A DNA stretch of 13,306 nt from Chromatiales bacterium. GTDB lineage: Bacteria; Pseudomonadota; Gammaproteobacteria; Steroidobacterales; GCA-2729495. The notes below the pieces were generated by a model, which was not told the DNA's origin, did no database searches, and saw only the letters and a program-made list of their open reading frames with translations. The stretch lies in contig JAUWKW010000013.1 of assembly GCA_030614035.1 (NCBI GenBank), positions 1-13,306 of the forward strand, given 5' to 3'. Of this stretch, positions 324 to 11,004 are shown one piece after another; positions within the stretch are counted from its first letter, which is position 1, and each line of letters opens with the position of its first letter. Both the position numbers and the translations under genes were made by a program.

Positions 324-1124
324 GTGGAAGAGCAAGATAAGAAAAAGGGGCGGATACGCCGCCGCGGCATCTACCTGCTTCCCAATCTGTTGACCACGGC
401 AGCACTGTTCGCTGGTTTCTACGCAGTAGTTGCGGCAATCGACGGCAACTATCCAAGTGCAGCCGTTGCTATTTTTATTGCGCAGCTACTGGACGGCCTG
501 GACGGAAAGCTGGCACGCCTGACCAGAACCGAGTCCGACTTCGGTAAAGAATATGACAGCCTTTCGGACATGGTCGCGTTCGGTTTGGCGCCAGCGTTGG
601 TTGTATACCAATGGGGCGTCGAACGTTTGTCCGAATACGGCTGGATCTGGGGCAAACTGGGTTGGCTGGCTGCGTTTCTGTACGCGGTTGCGGCGGCGCT
701 GCGGCTGGCGCGGTTCAACGCGATGCCGGAAGATTCAGACCGACGTTTCTTCCAGGGATTGCCGAGTCCTCCGGCAGCCGCGCTGGTCGCCGGTATGGTC
801 TGGGTTGGCACCGTGCACCAATGGTCCGGCGGCTTCGCGCTCGCGTTGGCGTTTTCGATTACCGCGGCCGCAGGTGCCCTGATGATTTCGCGGTTTCCCT
901 ACTACAGTTTTAAAGAGATCAGTGGCCGCGGTCGGATCTCCTTTACCTATGCCTTCGTGGTCCCACTGATATTCATTTTGATTGCGCTGAATCCACCCAC
1001 CGTGTTGTTTTCGCTGGCCGGAACTTACGCAATATCAGGGCCGATCACGGCGCTGTGGCGCCTGCGAAGCGGCGCTGACTCAGCCAAACAGAGCTCCGGC
1101 ACTGCTCCGGGGGCCGGACCGTGA
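324..1124 (+). CDS. pssA: CDP-diacylglycerol--serine O-phosphatidyltransferase (membrane type)
   Basis: The enzyme makes phosphatidylserine from CDP-diacylglycerol and L-serine in the inner membrane, the first committed step to phosphatidylethanolamine. The CDP-alcohol phosphatidyltransferase signature DGx2ARx8Gx3Dx3D is complete: D60, G61, A64, R65, G74, D78 and D82 (numbered from the GTG at 324). The upstream D57-G58 extends it. The N-terminal RRRGIYLLPNLLTT and the internal FFQGLPSPPAAA are typical of PssA rather than of PgsA or cardiolipin-type members. Several hydrophobic membrane spans follow. This is the multi-spanning type II enzyme, not the peripheral phospholipase-D-like form of E. 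coli. The protein is 266 residues from the chosen start; ATG 294 or GTG 267 would add 10 or 19 residues but lack a ribosome-binding site. The stop overlaps the next gene in GTGA, so it heads a coupled four-gene operon. Family call is firm, start moderate. Confidence 0.93.
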   Translation: MEEQDKKKGRIRRRGIYLLPNLLTTAALFAGFYAVVAAIDGNYPSAAVAIFIAQLLDGLDGKLARLTRTESDFGKEYDSLSDMVAFGLAPALVVYQWGVERLSEYGWIWGKLGWLAAFLYAVAAALRLARFNAMPEDSDRRFFQGLPSPPAAALVAGMVWVGTVHQWSGGFALALAFSITAAAGALMISRFPYYSFKEISGRGRISFTYAFVVPLIFILIALNPPTVLFSLAGTYAISGPITALWRLRSGADSAKQSSGTAPGAGP

Positions 1125-1828
1125 GCGAGCCCGCCGCCAGATTGTCACCGCGCCAGCGCAAGCTGCTCGACGCAATGGGGATTGATATCTGGGTCAGTCC
1201 CGATCGTTTGGCGGACGTGCCGGCGGCCGACGGTGCCATCGGCGTCAGCGTTGGCGGTACCCCCGACCAGGACTGGATTGCATTGGAACAGGAGGTATTG
1301 AGCTGCACACGCTGCCCATTGCACCGTTCCCGCACCCAGGCCGTCTTCGGGGTTGGAAATTCGTCGGCAGATTGGCTGATCATCGGCGAGGCCCCCGGCG
1401 TTGAAGAGGACCGGCGCGGGGAACCGTTCGTCGGCCGTGCCGGGCAATTGCTGAACGAGATGCTTCGCGCTGCCGGGTTAACGCGCGAACAGGTCTATAT
1501 CGCTAATATCCTGAAGTGCCGACCACCCGAGAATCGTGACCCGCGACCGGAGGAAGTCAGCTGCTGCACTCCTTATCTGGAGCGCCAGATCAGCCATATC
1601 GCGCCGCGGTTGATTCTTGCCGTTGGGCGAATTGCGGCACAAAATCTACTCGGTGTCGACATGCCCCTGGGAAAAATGCGTGGCACGGTGTACCACTATG
1701 GATCGGGAGGCATTCCAGTCGTGGTGACTTATCATCCAGCCTACCTGCTTCGCAGTCCCAGCCAAAAGCGCAAAGTCTGGGAGGATCTCTTGCTGGCGCA
1801 GCAACTGCTACAGGACCTTAGTCGATGA
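1121..1828 (+). CDS. Family 4 uracil-DNA glycosylase (Fe-S) with psi-like N-terminal extension
   Basis: The protein removes uracil from DNA to start base excision repair. Cys62, Cys65, Cys133 and Cys149 match the CxxC...C-x15-C spacing of the 4Fe-4S cluster in family 4 enzymes. Motif GEAPG is at 89-93, followed by the typical PFVGRAGQLLN (about 103-113), and the second active-site motif HPAYLLR is at 205-211. Start is the GTG whose GTGA overlaps the pssA stop; the end overlaps rimI in ATGA. At 235 residues it is longer than a minimal family 4 enzyme because of about 55 extra N-terminal residues. These begin with a basic helix-like segment, RQRKLLDAMGIDIW (11-24), resembling the start of E. 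coli DNA polymerase III psi (HolD), then an Ala/Gly/Val/Asp-rich linker. Enzyme family is firm. The role of the extension is inferred. Some databases label such proteins 'phage SPO1 DNA polymerase-related', which is the same domain. Confidence 0.92.
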   Translation: MSEPAARLSPRQRKLLDAMGIDIWVSPDRLADVPAADGAIGVSVGGTPDQDWIALEQEVLSCTRCPLHRSRTQAVFGVGNSSADWLIIGEAPGVEEDRRGEPFVGRAGQLLNEMLRAAGLTREQVYIANILKCRPPENRDPRPEEVSCCTPYLERQISHIAPRLILAVGRIAAQNLLGVDMPLGKMRGTVYHYGSGGIPVVVTYHPAYLLRSPSQKRKVWEDLLLAQQLLQDLSR

Positions 1829-2304
1829 TCGCGGCCGTCCAAGATCTGGGACCAAGCATACGCGAAATGCAGTATGGCGATGTGCCGGCGATCGTTGCGA
1901 TTGAAGCCGATACGTACGCGTTTCCGTGGACCGCAACAATATTTCGGGATTGCCTGCTGGCCGGATACACCAGCCTGGTGCTTGAACACGCTGGTGGACT
2001 GCAGGGCTATGCGATCATGTCGCTGGCCGCGGCTGAGGCACACCTGCTGAACCTGTGCGTGGCCGGGCATTTGCGATGTCGCGGTTTCGGCAGACAGTTG
2101 CTGCACCAACTGCTGGGTCAGGCACGAAGCGCGCGCGCCGAGCGAATCTACCTCGAAGTACGTCCAACCAACCAGGCTGCGCTGGAGATGTATCGCCAAG
2201 CCGGATTCGTCGAACTGGGAATTCGCCGAAACTACTATCGGTCGCTGGCCGGTCGCGAAGACGCAATGGTCCTGGTGCGTCGCCTGAATGAAATCCGCGC
2301 ATAG
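1825..2304 (+). CDS. rimI: Ribosomal protein S18 alanine N-acetyltransferase
   Basis: A GNAT-fold enzyme that transfers acetyl from acetyl-CoA to the N-terminal alanine of ribosomal protein S18. The acetyl-CoA loop RxxGxG is R84-C-R-G-F-G89. The following EVRPTNQAALEMYRQAGF (111-128) is the RimI-type C-terminal core with its glutamate at 111, and NYY (136-138) followed by EDAMVL matches the tyrosine region of RimI. FPW near residue 34 is also typical. The length (159) fits RimI (about 150). The ATG overlaps the glycosylase stop (ATGA) and has AGGA nine bases upstream. A shorter start at ATG 1867 is possible because the first 14 residues are not needed for the fold. The 3' end overlaps the transporter gene by 17 bases. 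In E. coli rimI directly follows holD; here it directly follows the glycosylase. Confidence 0.92.
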   Translation: MIAAVQDLGPSIREMQYGDVPAIVAIEADTYAFPWTATIFRDCLLAGYTSLVLEHAGGLQGYAIMSLAAAEAHLLNLCVAGHLRCRGFGRQLLHQLLGQARSARAERIYLEVRPTNQAALEMYRQAGFVELGIRRNYYRSLAGREDAMVLVRRLNEIRA

Positions 2305-3541
2305 CCGTTTATCGGTCATTAGCTGGGCGCTCTACGACTGGGCCAATTCGGCATTTTCTCTGACTGTGGTTACGGCCTTTGTACCGGTGCTGCTGGCCCA
2401 ATATTGGAACGATGGCGCCGCGTCCACGGTCACCACTTTCCGGCTCGGCTGGGCGAATGCGCTCGCCAGTCTGGTAATTGCGCTGATAGCACCGATCATA
2501 GGCGCCATTGCTGATCGGGCGAGTCGCCGCAAAGGGTTACTGCTGGTATTTGCTGCGCTGGGCGTGATCATGACCGGCGCACTCTTTTTCGTCGCTCAGG
2601 GTCAGTGGTTCATCGCGGTGGCCTTGTATGTCTTTGCATCAATCGGATTCGCCGGCAGCAATTCACTTTACGACGCATTACTAATTGCAGTTTCCACAGA
2701 AGAAGACTTCGACCGGATATCAGCTCTTGGATACGCTTACGGTTATCTCGGCGGTGCTTTGCTGTTTACGCTGAATGTGCTGATGGTTGCAAACCCGGGT
2801 TGGTTTGGTCTCGCTTCAGATGTCGAAGCGGTGCGATTGGCGTTTTTGCTGGTGGCAATCTGGTGGGCCGTTTTCAGTATTCCGTTGCTGCTGTTCGTGC
2901 CGGAAGACCGGACCGCCGCACAATCAGTTGCGCATTCGGTGGTCGATGGTTTGCGGCAGCTTAAAAAGACACTGGCAAAAGTGCGGTCGCATCGCGATAC
3001 GGTAGTTTTCCTGCTGGCCTATTGGCTGTATATCGACGGCGTTTATACGATCATCAAAATGGCGGTCGACTATGGTTTATCGCAGGGATTGAACATGGAT
3101 GACCTGATCCAGGCCGTGCTGATTACCAACTACATCGGTTTCCCGGCAGCACTGGCGTTCGGCGCATTTGGTGCCCGGTTCGGCGCTAAGCGTGGAATTA
3201 TCCTGGCGCTTTGTGTCTACCTGCTTGCAACGGCGATGGCGCCTTTCATAAATACAGAGGCGGAGTTCTATGCACTCGCGATCGCGATCGGGTTGGTACA
3301 GGGCGGTGTGCAGAGCCTGAGCAGGTCGCTATTCGCGCGGCTTATACCTGTTGGACAAACCGCGGAATTTTTCGGCTTTTACAACATGCTGGGCAAATTC
3401 GCGGCGATTCTCGGGCCGGCGATGGCCGGGGTTGTAGCTTTAGCCACGGGCAGCCAACGGATCGGCATCCTGTCGATCATCGTGTTATTTATTGCAGGCT
3501 TGGCAGTACTGACCCGCGTTCGGGTCCCGCCGGCAGCTTAA
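2288..3541 (+). CDS. MFS transporter, UMF1 / Atg22-like family
   Basis: A 417-residue inner-membrane protein with about twelve hydrophobic spans. The opening WALYDWANSAFS (13-24) is the hallmark of the UMF1/Atg22-like branch of the major facilitator superfamily. The loop between spans 2 and 3, GAIADRASRRKGL (72-84), is the MFS motif A. A cytoplasmic-looking charged stretch (about residues 215-238, DGLRQLKKTLAKVRSHR) separates the two halves. Yeast Atg22 exports amino acids from the vacuole, but the substrate of bacterial members is generally unknown and nothing here identifies it. The start lies inside the rimI 3' end (17-base overlap) and has no clear Shine-Dalgarno, so translation probably depends on coupling to rimI. 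Its TAA shares the bases TTAA with the stop of the convergent transglutaminase gene. Family confident; function unknown. Confidence 0.88.
   Translation: MKSAHSRLSVISWALYDWANSAFSLTVVTAFVPVLLAQYWNDGAASTVTTFRLGWANALASLVIALIAPIIGAIADRASRRKGLLLVFAALGVIMTGALFFVAQGQWFIAVALYVFASIGFAGSNSLYDALLIAVSTEEDFDRISALGYAYGYLGGALLFTLNVLMVANPGWFGLASDVEAVRLAFLLVAIWWAVFSIPLLLFVPEDRTAAQSVAHSVVDGLRQLKKTLAKVRSHRDTVVFLLAYWLYIDGVYTIIKMAVDYGLSQGLNMDDLIQAVLITNYIGFPAALAFGAFGARFGAKRGIILALCVYLLATAMAPFINTEAEFYALAIAIGLVQGGVQSLSRSLFARLIPVGQTAEFFGFYNMLGKFAAILGPAMAGVVALATGSQRIGILSIIVLFIAGLAVLTRVRVPPAA
3538..3541. other. Shared TTAA carrying both convergent stop codons
   Basis: Bases 3539-3541 read TAA on the plus strand and end the MFS gene. 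Bases 3538-3540 read TAA on the minus strand and end the transglutaminase gene. The two operons therefore have no bases between them. Any transcription terminator must lie inside the opposite gene. Confidence 0.95.
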
Positions 3542-5517
3542 TCGGGCTGGCGGCGTCGACTGGGCCGAAAGCGTCGGATTCGCTCGGTGAACTCGGCCAG
3601 ACGATCAGCAGCGGTCATTCCCTCGTAGCGCAATTGCAGGTAGAGGGCGTTGATCGCCACAATATCCCCGGCCAGATCCGGACGAACGCCAATCACCGCG
3701 CGGGCAAAATCGCTTGGACCTTCAGCCGGCTGCGGACCTCTGCCGATGTTGGCCAGCCGATTACAGAATCGCCGATACTGCCGCAAAACCGGGTCGACCG
3801 GACGAACCCCGGCCCGACCGAGCATGAACGCCAGCGCAGCCAGAAACACCGCGCAGCTGGTCATCATTGCAGCGACCAGGTCTGACCAGGAGGGCTTCGT
3901 AAAGCCCAGCGACTGCAGCAAGCTGCGTTGCACTTCCGGGCCAAATCCCAATACCCACTGGTTCCAGGCAGCATTGACCGCATCCCAGCTCAAGACCAGC
4001 CGGTTCAGCACGGGATTACCCCGCAGGCCTCGAATGCCATCACGTTCGCCGGCCGGTAGCGCCTCCTCCAGACCGTATTCGATGCGTTCAGGCGCCACCG
4101 CCGCGGTTGGGTCGAAGCGCAGCCAGGCACCGTCGAGCCACACTTCGGTCCAGGCGTGCGCGTTCGATTGGCGCACGATCCAGTAATCCGCCAGCGGGTT
4201 TCTTTCGGCGCCCTGGTACCCGGTGACCAGGCGCGCTGGGATGCCGGCGGCACGCGCCAGCACGGCAAAAGCCGATGCATAATGCTCACAAAAGCCTTTC
4301 CGGGTTTCGAACAGGAATTCATCGACCGGGTTGTCACCCAGGAGCTGGGGTGAAAGAGTGTAATAAAAAGCTTCCCGCCGGAACATTCTCAGTAGCTCCA
4401 TCAAATAAGCACGATCGCTGGTGGCGGCGCGGCGCAAGCGCTGCGCCATCGCCACGCTATTTGGATTGCTGGCCGGTGGCAGGAATGTGTTCGCCTGAAG
4501 ATACCGTGGGTGCTCGTCAATTCGGTTGATGCCGCCGGTGACCGAGCCGGCACGATACGCGATCCGTTGACGGATCGGAGTTTGGTTCATCAACTGATAC
4601 CCACCGGCAAGATACCCGCGCGGCGCGTCCCATTGCACGGGCGTTTCCAGGGCCAGTAACCAGCGGCGCCCGTGTGGCTCCAGGATCAGTTCATAGTTGA
4701 CGGTCGCAGCATGTCCCGGTGTAGCGGCGTCCGCTCTCGGGCGCAGCCCCCGATCTCGCCATGCCCAGCTGCGTCCATTGAAGAAACTCATTACCGGCCC
4801 GCGCCAGTAGCGTTCCCGGGGTTCGGGCACGGCCGATTCAAAACGCACACGAAAGGCCACAGCGTCGGAGCGGCTCAGGCTGGAAATGTCGCCTGGATTG
4901 ACCGTATCACTTAAGCCCGTGATCCCGCTGCCGCCGCCGGCTGGCAGGGCCCAGAATGGGCCCGGTACGCGGGGGAACAGAAAGAAAAGCAGCAACATTA
5001 ACGGTATCGCCTGTGCGATAAGCACCATCGCATGCATCAAGCTTCGGCGCGGTGGAAACGGTGGCCCGCGGACGCTTGATTGCAGCAGCGCGCAAATCGT
5101 AAAAGTCGTGCCGAGCAGCAGTAGGCCGACTGACCAGATCGCCTGTTCGCGCAGGAATGCGGCGAACAGCAGAAAAAAACATATCAACGCGACAATGGCC
5201 TGGTCGCGTTCGGCCCGGGTCTCGAGCAACTTCAGTCCAACCATGACCAGTAACAGGGCCGTACCCGCCTGGACACCGCTGATGCGCCGGTATGTCCAGA
5301 TGACCGCGATAAGACCAAACAGTGCCAGCGGGATGCGCAGCCAGCCGGACGGCAAACTCCAGCGACGTTGCTCGGCAAACAGCCGCCAGGTCGCGATGCT
5401 CAGCACCAGTGCGATGATCCACGGACTTACGAACGGAAAATGCGGCGCACTGGCGACAAGCATCGCGCCAATCAGCCAGGCAATGCGAACGACGTCACCG
5501 GTTGCTGCCGCATTCAT
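3538..5517 (-). CDS. TgpA-type transglutaminase-like membrane protein (DUF3488)
   Basis: A 659-residue inner-membrane protein with a large periplasmic transglutaminase-like domain. The N-terminal part (about residues 10-182) has a cluster of membrane spans (DUF3488), ending in FPRVPGPFWALP. The family-typical GLSD..NPGDIS.LS.SDAVAFRVRF follows at 201-226. The papain-like triad is visible: Cys410 in GFCEHYASA, His454 in NAHAWTEVW and Asp469 in FDPTAA. A last membrane span lies at about 546-568, then a C-terminal soluble tail. P. aeruginosa TgpA of this type was reported to be essential; the substrate is not settled. The start is ATG 5517, overlapping the DUF58 stop (ATGA), with AGGAA eight bases upstream. 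Upstream in-frame starts would run into DUF58. It is the last gene of the minus-strand train and ends at the shared TTAA. Confidence 0.92.
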   Translation of the reverse strand: MNAAATGDVVRIAWLIGAMLVASAPHFPFVSPWIIALVLSIATWRLFAEQRRWSLPSGWLRIPLALFGLIAVIWTYRRISGVQAGTALLLVMVGLKLLETRAERDQAIVALICFFLLFAAFLREQAIWSVGLLLLGTTFTICALLQSSVRGPPFPPRRSLMHAMVLIAQAIPLMLLLFFLFPRVPGPFWALPAGGGSGITGLSDTVNPGDISSLSRSDAVAFRVRFESAVPEPRERYWRGPVMSFFNGRSWAWRDRGLRPRADAATPGHAATVNYELILEPHGRRWLLALETPVQWDAPRGYLAGGYQLMNQTPIRQRIAYRAGSVTGGINRIDEHPRYLQANTFLPPASNPNSVAMAQRLRRAATSDRAYLMELLRMFRREAFYYTLSPQLLGDNPVDEFLFETRKGFCEHYASAFAVLARAAGIPARLVTGYQGAERNPLADYWIVRQSNAHAWTEVWLDGAWLRFDPTAAVAPERIEYGLEEALPAGERDGIRGLRGNPVLNRLVLSWDAVNAAWNQWVLGFGPEVQRSLLQSLGFTKPSWSDLVAAMMTSCAVFLAALAFMLGRAGVRPVDPVLRQYRRFCNRLANIGRGPQPAEGPSDFARAVIGVRPDLAGDIVAINALYLQLRYEGMTAADRLAEFTERIRRFRPSRRRQPD

Positions 5518-6527
5518 GCCGATGGTTCCTGGCTTGCGCCGTCGTCCGTCTGCCCAAATGTCGCCAACTGTCGCAGGCATTGGTGCACGTGCTGCTCGCC
5601 GCGCTGAGGTGCTATCGCGCTGCCTGGCAACCGCAAGCCAAAAGCTTGTCGCTCCCGATGTGCGTCGAGCACCAGTCGGGTAAGCATCGACAAACGGCTC
5701 TCGGTGTTCGCGGCAGCGACGGCATTCCATTCGATCCACAGCGGCTGCCGACCGCCTTCACGATACTCCTTGACGAGCAGAGTGCCGAGGCGAGCCACAC
5801 TCTTCCACGCGACGCGCCGAGGAGAATCGCCGGGACGAAATTCGCGCAGCCCGGAAAATTCGTCGTCACCAGACTGTTGTTGGCCGCCTGCATCCTGCGC
5901 GCTGGAAAGCACATCGAGTGGCGGCGAAGAATCGGCCGGTTTCGGGTAGACCAGCGCGGTTGTATCCAGGTTTATCCACGCCCAGGCTCGCAGCAACCCC
6001 AGAGGAAAAGTGGTGCTGACCGCCAGCCGTGGCGTTTGCATCCAACCTCTGCTTGGTGCGTCCAACGGCAACGAAAAGCGCGCATCGGACAGCGGGCCAA
6101 TGTCGACGTAGCGCGGGGATGACCGGTCCCAGGCGACGCGAATTTGCCAACGGTGCATTGTGCGCGAGTTGCCCGCAATAAATCTGAATTGCGCTTGTTG
6201 CCCGGCGAAGACCGGAGCAACACCCTGAAAGTCCAATCGGAGCCCAACGAGATTGCGGTGGCAGTGATGCATGGTAACCAGGCCGATGCCGGTTAGCAGG
6301 AAGGTCAGTGCAAAACCCATGTTGTTGTTGTAGTTCATCGAACCGAGCAACAAAACGAAAACGGTCAGCGCGTATGCGAGCCCGGTTCTGGTCGGCAGGA
6401 TGTAAATGCGACGGCGCGCCAGTTCGAGGCGCTGCGGGTCGACGCCCTGGCGGCGTCGCGCCCATCGCCGGCCCCGGTCGCCGATCTGGGCGGCCGCGTA
6501 TTGCCAGGGAAGCCGCAGCACGCTCAA
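5514..6527 (-). CDS. DUF58 domain protein of the MoxR module
   Basis: A 337-residue protein with two hydrophobic spans near the N terminus (about 46-64 and 69-86), separated by NYNNNMG, then a soluble domain. The DUF58 core is clear: FSGLREFRPGDSPRRVAWKS (224-243) followed by LLVKEYREGG (250-259). DUF58 proteins are regular partners of MoxR ATPases and transglutaminase-like membrane proteins; their biochemical role is unknown, though part of the fold resembles von Willebrand A domains. The start is a TTG at 6527 overlapping the MoxR stop (TTGA). A GTG two codons later is an alternative. There is no good Shine-Dalgarno, so translation is probably coupled to the ATPase gene. The end overlaps the transglutaminase start by four bases. 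Family call is firm; function stays at module level. Confidence 0.9.
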   Translation of the reverse strand: MSVLRLPWQYAAAQIGDRGRRWARRRQGVDPQRLELARRRIYILPTRTGLAYALTVFVLLLGSMNYNNNMGFALTFLLTGIGLVTMHHCHRNLVGLRLDFQGVAPVFAGQQAQFRFIAGNSRTMHRWQIRVAWDRSSPRYVDIGPLSDARFSLPLDAPSRGWMQTPRLAVSTTFPLGLLRAWAWINLDTTALVYPKPADSSPPLDVLSSAQDAGGQQQSGDDEFSGLREFRPGDSPRRVAWKSVARLGTLLVKEYREGGRQPLWIEWNAVAAANTESRLSMLTRLVLDAHRERQAFGLRLPGSAIAPQRGEQHVHQCLRQLATFGQTDDGASQEPSA

Positions 6528-7459
6528 GGAATGGGCACCGAATCCAGCACGAACTGACCGGACTGCCGCTCGGCAGTATCAACTTCGGCTCTCAGGCGCA
6601 GGCGATGCCCTGCGACCGCCGGGAACACCGCCTGCACGTCTTCCGGGTGTACACCGGCATGTCCGCAGATCAATGCCCAGGCGCGGGCTGCGCTGATCAA
6701 ATCAACGGACGCCCGGGGCGACAGTCCAAGTTCAAACTCCGCTGCCGAACGCGTAAACCGGACAAGGGCCTGCACGTAGTCCAACAGCGCATCAGAAACC
6801 GCAATTTGCCGGGTTGCTGCTCGCATTTCGATCAGGCTGGCATCACCAACCAAAGGCTCCAGCTGATCCAGTAAGTTGCGTCGGTCGTCGCCGCAAAGCA
6901 ATTTGCGCTCCAGTTCTTCGGCCGGATAGCCCAGCCCGATGCGCATTAAAAAACGGTCCAGCTGGGACTCGGGTAACGGGAAGGTACCGATCTGATAAAC
7001 CGGGTTCTGCGTCGCGATCACGAAAAACGGACTGGGTAAGGCGTAGGTTTCGCCATCTACCGTGACCTGGTGCTCCTCCATGGCTTCCAGCAGGGCGCTT
7101 TGTGATTTGGGTGTCGCCCGATTTATTTCGTCGGCGAGTATCAGCTGGGCAAACAGCGGTCCTTTGTGGAATTGAAATCTGGCTTCGGTCTGCTGGTATA
7201 TGGTCACCCCGATCACGTCGGCCGGCATCAGGTCACTGGTGAACTGGATACGGCTGAAACTGAGATCCAGCACCACAGCGAGCGAACGGGCCAGCAGCGT
7301 TTTGCCGACTCCGGGAACGTCTTCTATCAGCAAATGCCCGCCGGCGAGCACGCAGGCCAGCGCCAGCCGAATCTCATCGTCCTTACCGAGGATGACCTGG
7401 CCAACCTCGTCAGTCAGTTTGTCGGCGACGGCGGTCGCCTGATGAATCGCAGCATTCAT
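6524..7459 (-). CDS. MoxR-family AAA+ ATPase
   Basis: A 311-residue cytoplasmic AAA+ ATPase, the size usual for MoxR proteins. The Walker A region EDVPGVGKT is at 46-54 with Lys53 and Thr54. Walker B LILADE is at 106-111, and the sensor 1 region FFVIATQNP at 145-153. The MoxR-typical GTFPLPESQLDRFL follows at 158-171, and the C-terminal lid includes SPRASVDLISAARAWA. MoxR ATPases act as chaperone-like remodelling or metal-insertion factors, and this branch is usually encoded with DUF58 and transglutaminase genes, as here. ATG 7459 has GGGGAG nine bases upstream. The gene begins 37 bases after the valS stop, with no T-tailed hairpin between, so it may be read from the valS transcript. The client protein cannot be told from the sequence. 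Confidence 0.93.
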   Translation of the reverse strand: MNAAIHQATAVADKLTDEVGQVILGKDDEIRLALACVLAGGHLLIEDVPGVGKTLLARSLAVVLDLSFSRIQFTSDLMPADVIGVTIYQQTEARFQFHKGPLFAQLILADEINRATPKSQSALLEAMEEHQVTVDGETYALPSPFFVIATQNPVYQIGTFPLPESQLDRFLMRIGLGYPAEELERKLLCGDDRRNLLDQLEPLVGDASLIEMRAATRQIAVSDALLDYVQALVRFTRSAAEFELGLSPRASVDLISAARAWALICGHAGVHPEDVQAVFPAVAGHRLRLRAEVDTAERQSGQFVLDSVPIP

Positions 7460-7496: not shown

Positions 7497-10256
7497 TTAA
7501 ATCAGTTCATCCAGTTTCTCGAGCTGGGCATCAATCTGGCTGATTTCGCGTTCCAGGTCTGTGAACCGTTGCCGTTCTTTGGCCAACACCGCCGCTGGGG
7601 CTTTGGCGAGGAATTGCTTGTTTTCGAGCTTGCCCTGAATCTTTTGGAGATCATGCGTGCCGCGGCCGCGCTTTTTCTCCAGGCGGAGCTTTTCGGCCGC
7701 AACGTCGATCACACCCGCCATTGGCACCAGGATTTTCATTGCCCCGAGCAGCGCGGTTGCGGACGGCGGCGGCGATTCGTCGTCGGCGAGGACCCGGACG
7801 TCAGCGAGTCGGCCGAGGTTCTTTAAATACAGCGCGTGGCGCGCCAGCAACTCCTGGTCCGTGTCCGACGCACCCTGTAACAGCACGGACAATGGCCGAC
7901 CGGGCGCAATGTCCATTTCGCCACGAATCTGGCGAATGCCAATAATGACGCCCATGATCCATTCGATCTGCTGCTCGGCATCTGCATCCTTATCGAACGC
8001 GTCCGCGCTTGGGTAGGCCTGCAGCATGATCGTTGCGCCGTCGCGAGGCGCCAGTTTCTGCCAGATCTCCTCGGTAATAAACGGGATCAGTGGGTGCAGG
8101 CAGCGCAGCAACGCGTCGAGTACTTCAACCAGGGTTTCGCGCGTCGCCGCTTTCGACGAATCCGTAGCATCCGTATCCTGCAACGCGGTTTTAGACAGCT
8201 CCAGGTACCAGTCGCAGTATTCGTTCCAGGTGAACTCGTATAGCGTTTTGGCCGCGAGATCGAGGCGGTAGGATTCCAGGTGTTTACGCGTGTCCACGAT
8301 TGTCTGATTAAGGCGCGAACGAATCCAGCGGTCACAAAGGTTTTGATCCGCGGGGGCTATCGGCGCGGACTGAGCATCTGGAGTTTGATTCATCAGCACA
8401 TATCGGGCCGCATTCCAGATTTTGTTACAAAAATTTCGGTAACCCTCTATTCGATTCAAATCGAATCGAATGTCGCGGCCCGTGCTGGCCAATGCAGCGA
8501 AGGTAAAGCGCAATGCATCTGTACCGAACTCGGGGATGCCATTGGGAAATTGCTTGCGGGTCGCGGCCTCGATCTGCGGTTTCAATTGCGGCTGCATCAG
8601 TCCGGCGGTGCGTTTGTCCAGCAGCGTATCCAAATCGACCCCGTCTATCAGGTCCAGCGGATCGAGCACGTTTCCCTTGGACTTGGACATCTTCTGGCCT
8701 TCCTGGTCGCGAATCAGCCCGTGTATGTAAACTTCGCGAAACGGCACATCGCCGGCAAATTTCAGGCCCATCATGATCATCCGTGCAACCCAGAAGAAGA
8801 TGATGTCGAAACCGGTGACCAGGACGCTGCCAGGGTAGAACGTCTTCAGGTCTGACGTGTCGTCGGGCCAACCCTGTGTGGAAAAGGGCCACAGCGCAGA
8901 CGAAAACCAGGTGTCCAGAACGTCTTCGTCCTGGCGAAGCACCAGATCTGGTGCAAGGTCGTGCCGTTGCCGGGCTTCGGTCTCTGATCGGCCGACATAG
9001 ATGTTCCCGGCGTCGTCATACCACGCGGGAATTCGATGGCCCCACCACAGTTGCCGGCTGATGCACCAGTCCTGGATGTTGTGCATCCACTCGAAGTAGG
9101 TTTTGGACCAGTTTTCCGGTATGAAACGAATGCGGCCATCTTCGACCGCCTGGATGGCTGGCTCAGCCAGGGGCCCGGTTTTCACGAACCACTGATCTGT
9201 CAGGTACGGTTCCACGATCTCGGTGCTGCGATCACCGCGCGGAACCATCATCGAGTGGTCTTCGATCTTTTCAACGAGGCCTGCGGCCTCAAGGTCGGCG
9301 ACAACACGTTTCCGGGCGTCGAAGCGGTCGAGGTTCCGGTATGGCTCCGGCGCGTTGTCGTTAATCTCTGCGTTGGTTGAAAAAATATTGATGATTGGCA
9401 AATCGTGTCGCAGGCCGACTTCGTAATCGTTGAAATCATGGGCCGGCGTAATCTTTACGCAGCCGCTGCCAAACTCGGGGTCGACGTATTCGTCCGCGAT
9501 GACCGGTATCTGCCGGCCCGTTAGCGGCAACTCCACCGTTAGCCCGACCAGCGAACGGTAACGTGTGTCTTCGGGATGCACGGCTACGGCTGTGTCGCCA
9601 AGCATCGTTTCAGGTCGAGTCGTGGCTACAACGACATAGCCGTCCCCACTCGTTAGCGGATAGCGGAAATGCCACAGGTGGCCTTGCTCTTCTTTCGACA
9701 GTACCTCGAGGTCGGACAGGGCCGTGTGCAACACCGGATCCCAATTAACCAGACGCTTGCCCCGGAAAATTAAGCCTTCATCGTATAGTTGAACGAATAC
9801 TTCGATGACTGCCCGCGACAGGTCCTCGTCCATCGTGAACCGTTCGCGACTCCAGTCGCCCGAACTGCCCATGCGCCTGAGCTGCTGCGCGATCGTATCG
9901 CCCGATTGCTGTTTCCAGTCCCAGACTTTCTGCAGGAACGCTTCCCGCCCGAGGCTCAGGCGATCCTGACCGGCGGATTCGATCTGCCGTTCGACGACCA
10001 TTTGCGTGGCGATACCGGCGTGGTCCATGCCGGGTTGCCACAAGCTGTTGTAACCGAGCATACGGTGATATCGCGTCAGGGCGTCCATGATCGTGTCCTG
10101 GAACGCGTGCCCCATGTGCAGTGTGCCGGTGACATTCGGCGGCGGAATCATTATCGAGTACGGCTCGCCGTGACCGGACGGCGCAAAATAGCCAGCCTTC
10201 TCCCAATGCGCGTACCAGGCTTTCTCGATGGCGGCTGGCTTATAGGATTTTTCCAT
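7497..10256 (-). CDS. valS: Valyl-tRNA synthetase
   Basis: A class I aminoacyl-tRNA synthetase that charges tRNA-Val in the cytoplasm. It is 919 residues, within the normal range. The ATP-binding HIGH motif is HMGH (47-50) after PPPNVTGTL. The editing (CP1) domain, which removes mischarged threonine, includes [18 protein letters not shown] (211-228). The [16 protein letters not shown] block (397-412) is typical. KMSKS is at 522-526. The C terminus (about 850-919) is charged and helical, ending in KLDELI, and is the valS-specific coiled-coil arm. The start overlaps the small upstream gene (TGATG) and has GAGG four bases before the ATG. The long plus-strand open frames across it are shadows. 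Confidence 0.98.
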
Positions 10257-10567
10257 CAGGCCTCAGGTTTTCCCTTGGTATCACCGGGGCCACCGGAAAA
10301 TTGTTCTTTCAGGATGTCATCGATCAGTATTGGAAGTTCGTGCTGGGCTCTGCGGCGCAGCCGCTCCGCCAGCGTAAATTCCAGATCCTTGAGCATATTT
10401 GCCAGCAGCCGTTCAATGAGGAGGAGACCGCTCTTGGTCAGCCGTGAGCGCAACAACTCCAGATCCGCCTCATCGATTTGGCTTGCTGCTGGCGTTTCCT
10501 CGGCACCCGCCTGCTTTTCGATGCTCTCCGTTAATAGTGGAATGCGATCGCTTGCCACAGCAGTCAT
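10256..10567 (-). CDS. Small helical protein of unknown function between holC and valS
   Basis: A 103-residue soluble protein that I cannot assign to a named family. Its first 35 residues are polar and probably flexible. Residues about 36-93 look alpha-helical with many Leu, Arg and Glu (for example [20 protein letters not shown], then [21 protein letters not shown]). The tail is Gly/Lys/Pro-rich. No signal peptide, membrane span or cysteine motif is seen. ATG 10567 overlaps the holC stop (ATGA), and its own stop overlaps the valS start (TGATG). This packing, and my recollection that Pseudomonas has a small hypothetical gene in the same holC-valS slot, argue that it is real. An in-frame upstream start would overlap holC by 75 bases and is unlikely. 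Confidence 0.72.
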
Positions 10568-11004
10568 CCAATCGGATGGGTTTCTATCTGACAACCCTGA
10601 TCGCGGTAGTACTGATAGCGTTGCCGGCCAGCCGCGCGGCAACCATCGCTGCGATCGACGATCTCGGCTACGCGGGGGAAGGCCGCATAGAAAGACGGCG
10701 TTTGTTCGGACAGATTGATCAGCAGATCGCCTTCGCCGGTACTATCGGTGCCGCATCCAATCGTCACCGGTGCGGCAGGGATGCGGCCCGGTTCGACGAG
10801 TTCATGCGGCACAAAGCTGCCACCGCGGAAAGTCCAAAGCAAATCGTCAAGGCGCCGGGCATCGGCTTGGGTTTCGGCGTGGGCGTAAATCCTGTGGGAG
10901 AGTACGTAAGCCTTCTCCGCCAAACGGCAGGCGAATCGTAACCGGCCACTCGGCTCGGTTGATTCAAGGACGTAAAAGTCTACGCGGGTCGCTGCGTTCG
11001 GCAA
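10564..11004 (-). CDS. holC: DNA polymerase III subunit chi
   Basis: Chi is the accessory clamp-loader subunit that pairs with psi (HolD) and binds the C-terminal tail of SSB, linking the replicase to single-stranded DNA. Family features include the start TRVDFYVLES, the block FACRLAEKAY (24-33), and DDLLWTFRGGSFVPHE (53-68) with the aromatic DxLLWTF motif. The rest covers the normal length: 146 residues against 147 in E. coli. I chose the TTG at 11004 because a perfect GGAGG ends eight bases upstream and the family alignment begins just after it. The frame stays open up to 11181 inside pepA, but those residues are not chi-like. It lies 71 bases behind pepA and overlaps the next gene in ATGA. 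No holD is present in this window. Confidence 0.9.
   Translation of the reverse strand: MPNAATRVDFYVLESTEPSGRLRFACRLAEKAYVLSHRIYAHAETQADARRLDDLLWTFRGGSFVPHELVEPGRIPAAPVTIGCGTDSTGEGDLLINLSEQTPSFYAAFPRVAEIVDRSDGCRAAGRQRYQYYRDQGCQIETHPIG

Follow-up and report, generated by a model that had tools for sequence, protein, structure and literature searches.

A family-4 uracil-DNA glycosylase with a psi-type N terminus and its kinship with the clamp-loader subunit psi

What would a peptide of the clamp-loader subunit psi (HolD) be doing at the head of a uracil-DNA glycosylase (UDG)? The question is raised by a gene in the 13,306-nucleotide stretch of Chromatiales DNA (the window), which encodes a family-4 UDG whose residues 11-24 recall the N terminus of Escherichia coli psi. 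A sequence-only reading had noted this resemblance and proposed that the enzyme is tethered to the replicase or doubles as psi. The explanation that we favour, with a probability of about 0.8, is that the gene product is both an active-type iron-sulfur (Fe-S) family-4 UDG and the psi subunit of the clamp loader, classical psi being a decayed UDG. The computed evidence that carries it is the homology of peptide and body between the two proteins, synteny, the mutual exclusion of their genes across genomes and a series of altered forms. The features concerned are the following.

1121..1828, + strand: family-4 UDG with psi-type N terminus (235 residues, GTG start, stop included)
1151..1192, + strand: psi (HolD)-type clamp-loader peptide, residues 11-24, letters RQRKLLDAMGIDIW
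1193..1282, + strand: variable linker, residues 25-54 (from alignment and structure model)
1283..1813, + strand: UDG catalytic domain, residues 55-231 (from profile matches)
1304-1306, 1313-1315, 1517-1519 and 1565-1567, + strand: C62, C65, C133 and C149, four cysteines as in family-4 Fe-S UDGs
1388..1390, + strand: Glu90 of motif A (GEAPG), kept in 170/170 rows
1733..1735, + strand: His205 of motif B (HPAYLLR), kept in 170/170 rows
1825..2304, + strand: rimI, S18-alanine N-acetyltransferase (TIGR01575, 110.4 bits, cut-off 86.4)
10585..10989, - strand: holC, encoding chi, the clamp-loader partner of psi (PF04364, 126.7 bits)

A psi-type peptide before an intact glycosylase domain

The window UDG scores 228.9 bits with TIGR00758 (curated cut-off 125.3) and 139.5 bits with PF03167, and it retains C62, C65, C133, C149, E90 and H205, the residues expected of family 4; that the four cysteines are ligands of an Fe-S cluster is a role which we take over from what is known of this family. 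A complete glycosylase of the Fe-S type thus does follow the peptide, as the sequence-only reading had it, and the linker of about 30 residues that it placed between the two is variable (approximately 1 bit per column among the anchored homologues defined below, i.e. not conserved), with pLDDT below 50 at residues 26-43 of a structure model in which residues 10-18 form a helix and the UDG domain is confident. Since the psi model PF03603 gives no match to the window UDG at E up to 1, and hence nothing at the Pfam cut-off, the claim made here is one of homology and psi-like function, not of PF03603 membership. A second, weak UDG-like match is present in the window's genome (G000:C163:1378-1758, - strand, E 5.7e-9).

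E. coli K-12 HolD (NC_000913.3) starts MTSRRDWQLQQLGITQW, exactly the letters given in the sequence-only reading, and the resemblance is real. As for the proposed pattern R-x4-L-x2-[LM]-G-I-x2-W, the spacing of Leu and Trp stands, while the literal wording is too strict, its near-literal form [RK]....L..[LM]GI..[WYF] matching only 21 of the best 120 homologues out of 8,000 scored. In this set 118 could be anchored, by a pattern that allowed only an aromatic residue (W, F or Y) in the place of the Trp. All 118 have Leu16 and Trp24, and what had been named the key test, conservation, is thereby passed among close orthologues. Within the peptide Gly is frequently Asp, Ile is frequently Val and the first Arg is variable; three residues after the Trp there is an Arg in 110/118 anchored homologues and a Pro in the window UDG.

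Among the 30 best loci of the class (the window's included) the Trp motif and an adjacent rimI are each found in 30/30, among 60 further loci each in 55/60, and among 80 loci of named genome records, the highest-ranking of 588, in 72/80 and 76/80, respectively. Pooled, these sets, which favour close relatives of the window, give 157/170 for the Trp motif and 161/170 for rimI (153/166 and 157/166 without the window and three doubles), and 8 of the 13 loci lacking the Trp have Tyr or Phe instead. In a hand-chosen set of 28 genomes (30 loci), a UDG above 40 bits was found at 27 of the loci, of which 17 have the Trp motif and 11 an adjacent rimI. Three records, two titled Klebsiella pneumoniae and one Synechococcaceae cyanobacterium (L054, L072 and L112), carry a gammaproteobacterial locus and are probably mislabelled metagenome bins.

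Is the likeness to psi more than a short match? A profile-profile comparison of the N termini, which had been suggested as a check, aligned 45 residues of 30 HolD proteins with 55 residues of UDGs by hhalign at a probability of 98.2 and a score of 55.0 over 30 columns, a score reached by 0/400 column shuffles (best 21.8). PF03603 itself passes its cut-off on one UDG (L017, 23.4 bits), via model positions 3-26 alone, its matches on UDGs being otherwise weak. A looser pattern, L..[LMI][GDEA][IV]..W, has 25 matches in the 1,182,914 residues of 8,581 non-UDG six-frame open reading frames (ORFs), from loci picked by HolD, UDG and rimI searches, so that only the chance rate is meaningful. By reading, 23 of these belong to HolD or to psi-like genes that adjoin rimI, one (L059) is a chance match and one (L153) is ambiguous, the peptide lying in a different frame from the long ORF. 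The chance origin that had been allowed for is not borne out, a single clear chance match having turned up among all these residues. Alignments with the UDGs of Thermotoga, Thermus and Sulfolobus begin at window residue 46-51, which pairs with residue 1 or 2 of those proteins, and the N-terminal extension is therefore an addition.

The place of the gene tells the same story. The window UDG lies directly upstream of rimI, the position that holD has in E. coli (NC_000913.3), where holD and rimI overlap. Its other neighbour is a CDP-alcohol phosphatidyltransferase gene, whose stop is overlapped by the GTG of the UDG (GTGA), and the UDG stop in turn overlaps the rimI start (ATGA). DnaX domain III is encoded in the same genome (PF12169, 74.1 bits), in which, at 72% completeness, no PF03603 psi was found.

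Homology of the bodies and the series of altered forms

The bodies of HolD and UDG are homologous. HolD profiles from which the peptide had been removed match UDG with probabilities of 95-98, which 0/400 shuffles reach; gap-rich columns, which gave artefact scores above the real ones (5 of 131-136, over 5-27 columns), were removed for this control. A HolD model of middling confidence, made from HolD sequences alone, points the same way, UDGs being its best PDB matches and E. coli psi coming lower down.

Between intact UDG and HolD there are altered forms. In the three main groups, whose 170 rows comprise 167 distinct bodies, E90 and H205 are intact in 170/170 and all four cysteines in 160/170, the other 10 having Ser at position 133. 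Otherwise intact psi-type UDGs in which Ser replaces the third Fe-S cysteine were seen at L191, L204, L207, L216, L221, L242, L068, L076, L083 and L098. Four loci (L174-L177) have a UDG body of 106-145 bits, the peptide, an adjacent rimI and all four cysteines, with Glu90 replaced by Asp (L174, L176), Ile (L175) or Ala (L177), and with His205 kept in L174 and replaced by Ala (L175) or Ser (L176, L177). At two others, L180 and L181, all four cysteines are gone; L180 is in one family with L167, which retains the cysteines and both catalytic residues. A search with the altered bodies gave 1,007 proteins, and 107 of the 120 listed have the peptide but neither catalytic motif by regular expression, although some, such as L174, retain the His. 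The relatives can accordingly be ordered from intact UDG, through UDG with altered catalytic residues and four cysteines and a protein without cysteines, to HolD. Proteins P0137-P0256 and L174-L177, with psi peptide, altered catalytic motifs and in several cases four cysteines, resemble Fe-S psi subunits.

Genomes with chi and without either UDG or PF03603 number 38, and rimI was found in 31 of them. At the 30 rimI loci read, the upstream gene fits a loose psi pattern in 16, several with remnants of motif B; by reading, one of these is a chance match (L130) and one doubtful (L154). Of the 14 unmarked loci, several (L129, L134, L135, L137 and L147 among them) look psi-like by eye but lack the Trp, and no psi-like feature was seen at L140, L148 and L156-L158. 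In a maximum-likelihood tree of 54 UDG bodies the altered rows attract each other through their long branches, so that one loss and several cannot be told apart; nor does this tree set the psi-type UDGs apart as a single clade from the UDGs of other classes. Searching plasmids with E. coli HolD (13 records) added nothing.

Distribution across genomes

Across 369 genomes of the class the UDG match is strong in 250 (E <=1e-50, a limit chosen here, with the catalytic residues behind strong matches checked in part of the genomes), weak in 42 and absent in 77. HolD occurs in 0, 1 and 14 of these, respectively (16 PF03603 genomes minus UDG L017), the single case in the weak class being, by reading, a HolD that matches the UDG query itself. 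Strong UDG match and HolD are mutually exclusive in the 369 genomes. Chi is found in 234/250, 32/42 and 45/77 of the strong, weak and absent classes, and Ung over its cut-off in 16/250, 25/42 and 65/77. For Ung, strong against absent gives a Fisher P of about 1.6e-40, and 7/114 against 25/27 with one genome per family (P about 2.9e-19), values that are too small because genomes are related; the direction is clear all the same, a strong UDG mostly going without Ung and an absent UDG mostly with it. The genomes of L174-L177, L180 and L181 (G137, G250, G143, G204, G224 and G145) all have Ung.

In 40 further genomes, 39 of them from other classes of the phylum, chi is found in 39. Their UDGs (L257-L296), inspected by eye, mostly have other conserved N-terminal peptides followed by a linker, examples being LLAFYLEAGVDEAIGEEPVDRF-like, LEYWQECGIDLLSGD-like and YLREIGVVTPI, and a rimI hidden Markov model (HMM), built from two sequences, found rimI near only one UDG among the 40, in the genome of the window's class. 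Two proteins named Chromobacterium (betaproteobacteria) have a variant one residue longer, EMGLGPAW (P0251 and P0254), and a Thioalkalivibrio protein (P0256) has the usual form. A wider proposal, which we hold only a little above even odds, would be that psi, rather than an orphan clamp-loader subunit, is a decayed Fe-S UDG, and that the active UDG still serves as psi in the majority of Proteobacteria with chi (beta, gamma and, with variant N-terminal peptides, perhaps alpha). Uracil excision would then be built into the replisome, and psi would have become a pure scaffold only after Ung took over uracil repair.

As for the rest of the window, the chi gene is flanked by pepA and valS (valS by reading of the translation), and a 128-residue ORF between holC and valS (10256-10642, - strand) has no Pfam or NCBIfam match. 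The region 3538-7459 (- strand) contains a TgpA-type transglutaminase gene beside genes that read, in translation, as a DUF58-like and a MoxR-like ATPase gene.

A glycosylase as a proposed clamp-loader subunit

How would such a protein work? The N-terminal helix with its conserved Leu and Trp would dock on the DnaX collar like the N terminus of E. coli psi, which, according to passages of two papers, docks on domain III of three tau/gamma subunits (PMC3290774; PMC11253446). The flexible linker would carry the glycosylase domain, placed where the psi body sits, and this domain would probably hold chi and, via chi, SSB, so that uracil in the template or the new strand could be excised at the replication fork. 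The HolD gene of E. coli and its relatives would be this very gene once catalysis and the Fe-S cysteines had been lost, mostly in Ung-bearing genomes. We thus infer binding to DnaX, binding to chi, enzymatic activity and the direction of change. A UDG that is fastened to the clamp loader and also acts as psi, a proposal whose functional half is predicted from sequence, is supported by the adjacent rimI, chi, the missing HolD match and the homology of the psi and UDG bodies. What had been missed earlier is that psi itself seems to be a decayed UDG, so that there is more to the history than the joining of a peptide to a glycosylase.

A UDG-body HMM does not detect E. coli HolD (-1.8 bits), and the homology of the bodies therefore rests on the HolD profile and the intermediates. 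In the hand-chosen set of genomes, 13 have a UDG match but no chi; the UDG keeps the Trp motif in 9 of them and has Tyr instead in 2, which speaks against a strict tie to chi. The latter finding, that UDGs of chi-negative genomes mostly retain the peptide, favours the alternative that survives best, in which the UDG is tethered to DnaX without replacing psi or binding chi, chi being alone or with another partner; passages of PMC3290774 suggest a possible direct contact of chi with tau in cases that lack psi. However, the HolD body, as modelled, matches the UDG fold, and passages of PMC3197488 report that psi is undetectable in several genomes whose chi retains the psi-binding sites, and we regard this alternative as unlikely. 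More doubtful still is that the peptide shares descent with that of psi and binds another partner in UDGs (the beta clamp, SSB or something else), DnaX binding having arisen only in the HolD line. Binding data for psi-type UDGs were not found, and UDGs of other proteobacterial classes bear different N-terminal peptides, but the alignments of UDG and of HolD share their fixed residues, which most simply means one ligand, and chi accompanies a strong UDG match in 234/250 genomes. Finally, a psi-type peptide joined to an unrelated UDG, or a like helix that arose independently, is very improbable, for although short peptides converge easily and E. coli HolD alone has no sequence match to UDG, the body-only profile matches, the fold matches, the shared rimI slot and the altered intermediates all argue against unrelated bodies.

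A UDG that is also psi would offer an answer to an open question, namely why chi is widespread and psi seemingly missing from many bacteria; passages of PMC3290774 place chi in alpha-, beta- and gammaproteobacteria and psi only in the last. It would give psi an evolutionary origin, in a DNA-repair enzyme turning stepwise into a structural part of the replisome, and leads one to expect a uracil glycosylase within the clamp loader of many Proteobacteria. A link between psi and uracil glycosylase was not found in the titles and abstract starts of the papers listed from the open-licence literature, nor in passages of PMC3197488, PMC12871192, PMC3290774, PMC13213242 and PMC3331839; PMC11253446, PMC7145534 and PMC3000357 name both, in passages that draw no link between them.

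Among known systems, psi (HolD, PF03603) of E. coli and P. aeruginosa has in common with the window UDG the N-terminal peptide, a homologous body and the company of chi, as well as, in E. coli, the slot before rimI; neither the catalytic residues nor the Fe-S cysteines are present in HolD, whereas the window UDG keeps all of them and goes unrecognised by PF03603. The family-4 UDGs of Thermus (1ui0), Thermotoga (1vk2) and Sulfolobus (4zbx), unlike the window UDG, have no psi-type N-terminal extension. In the YoaA-chi complex of E. coli, too, a repair protein works with the clamp-loader subunit chi, although YoaA is described as an iron-sulfur helicase and, in contrast to the window UDG, not a relative of psi.
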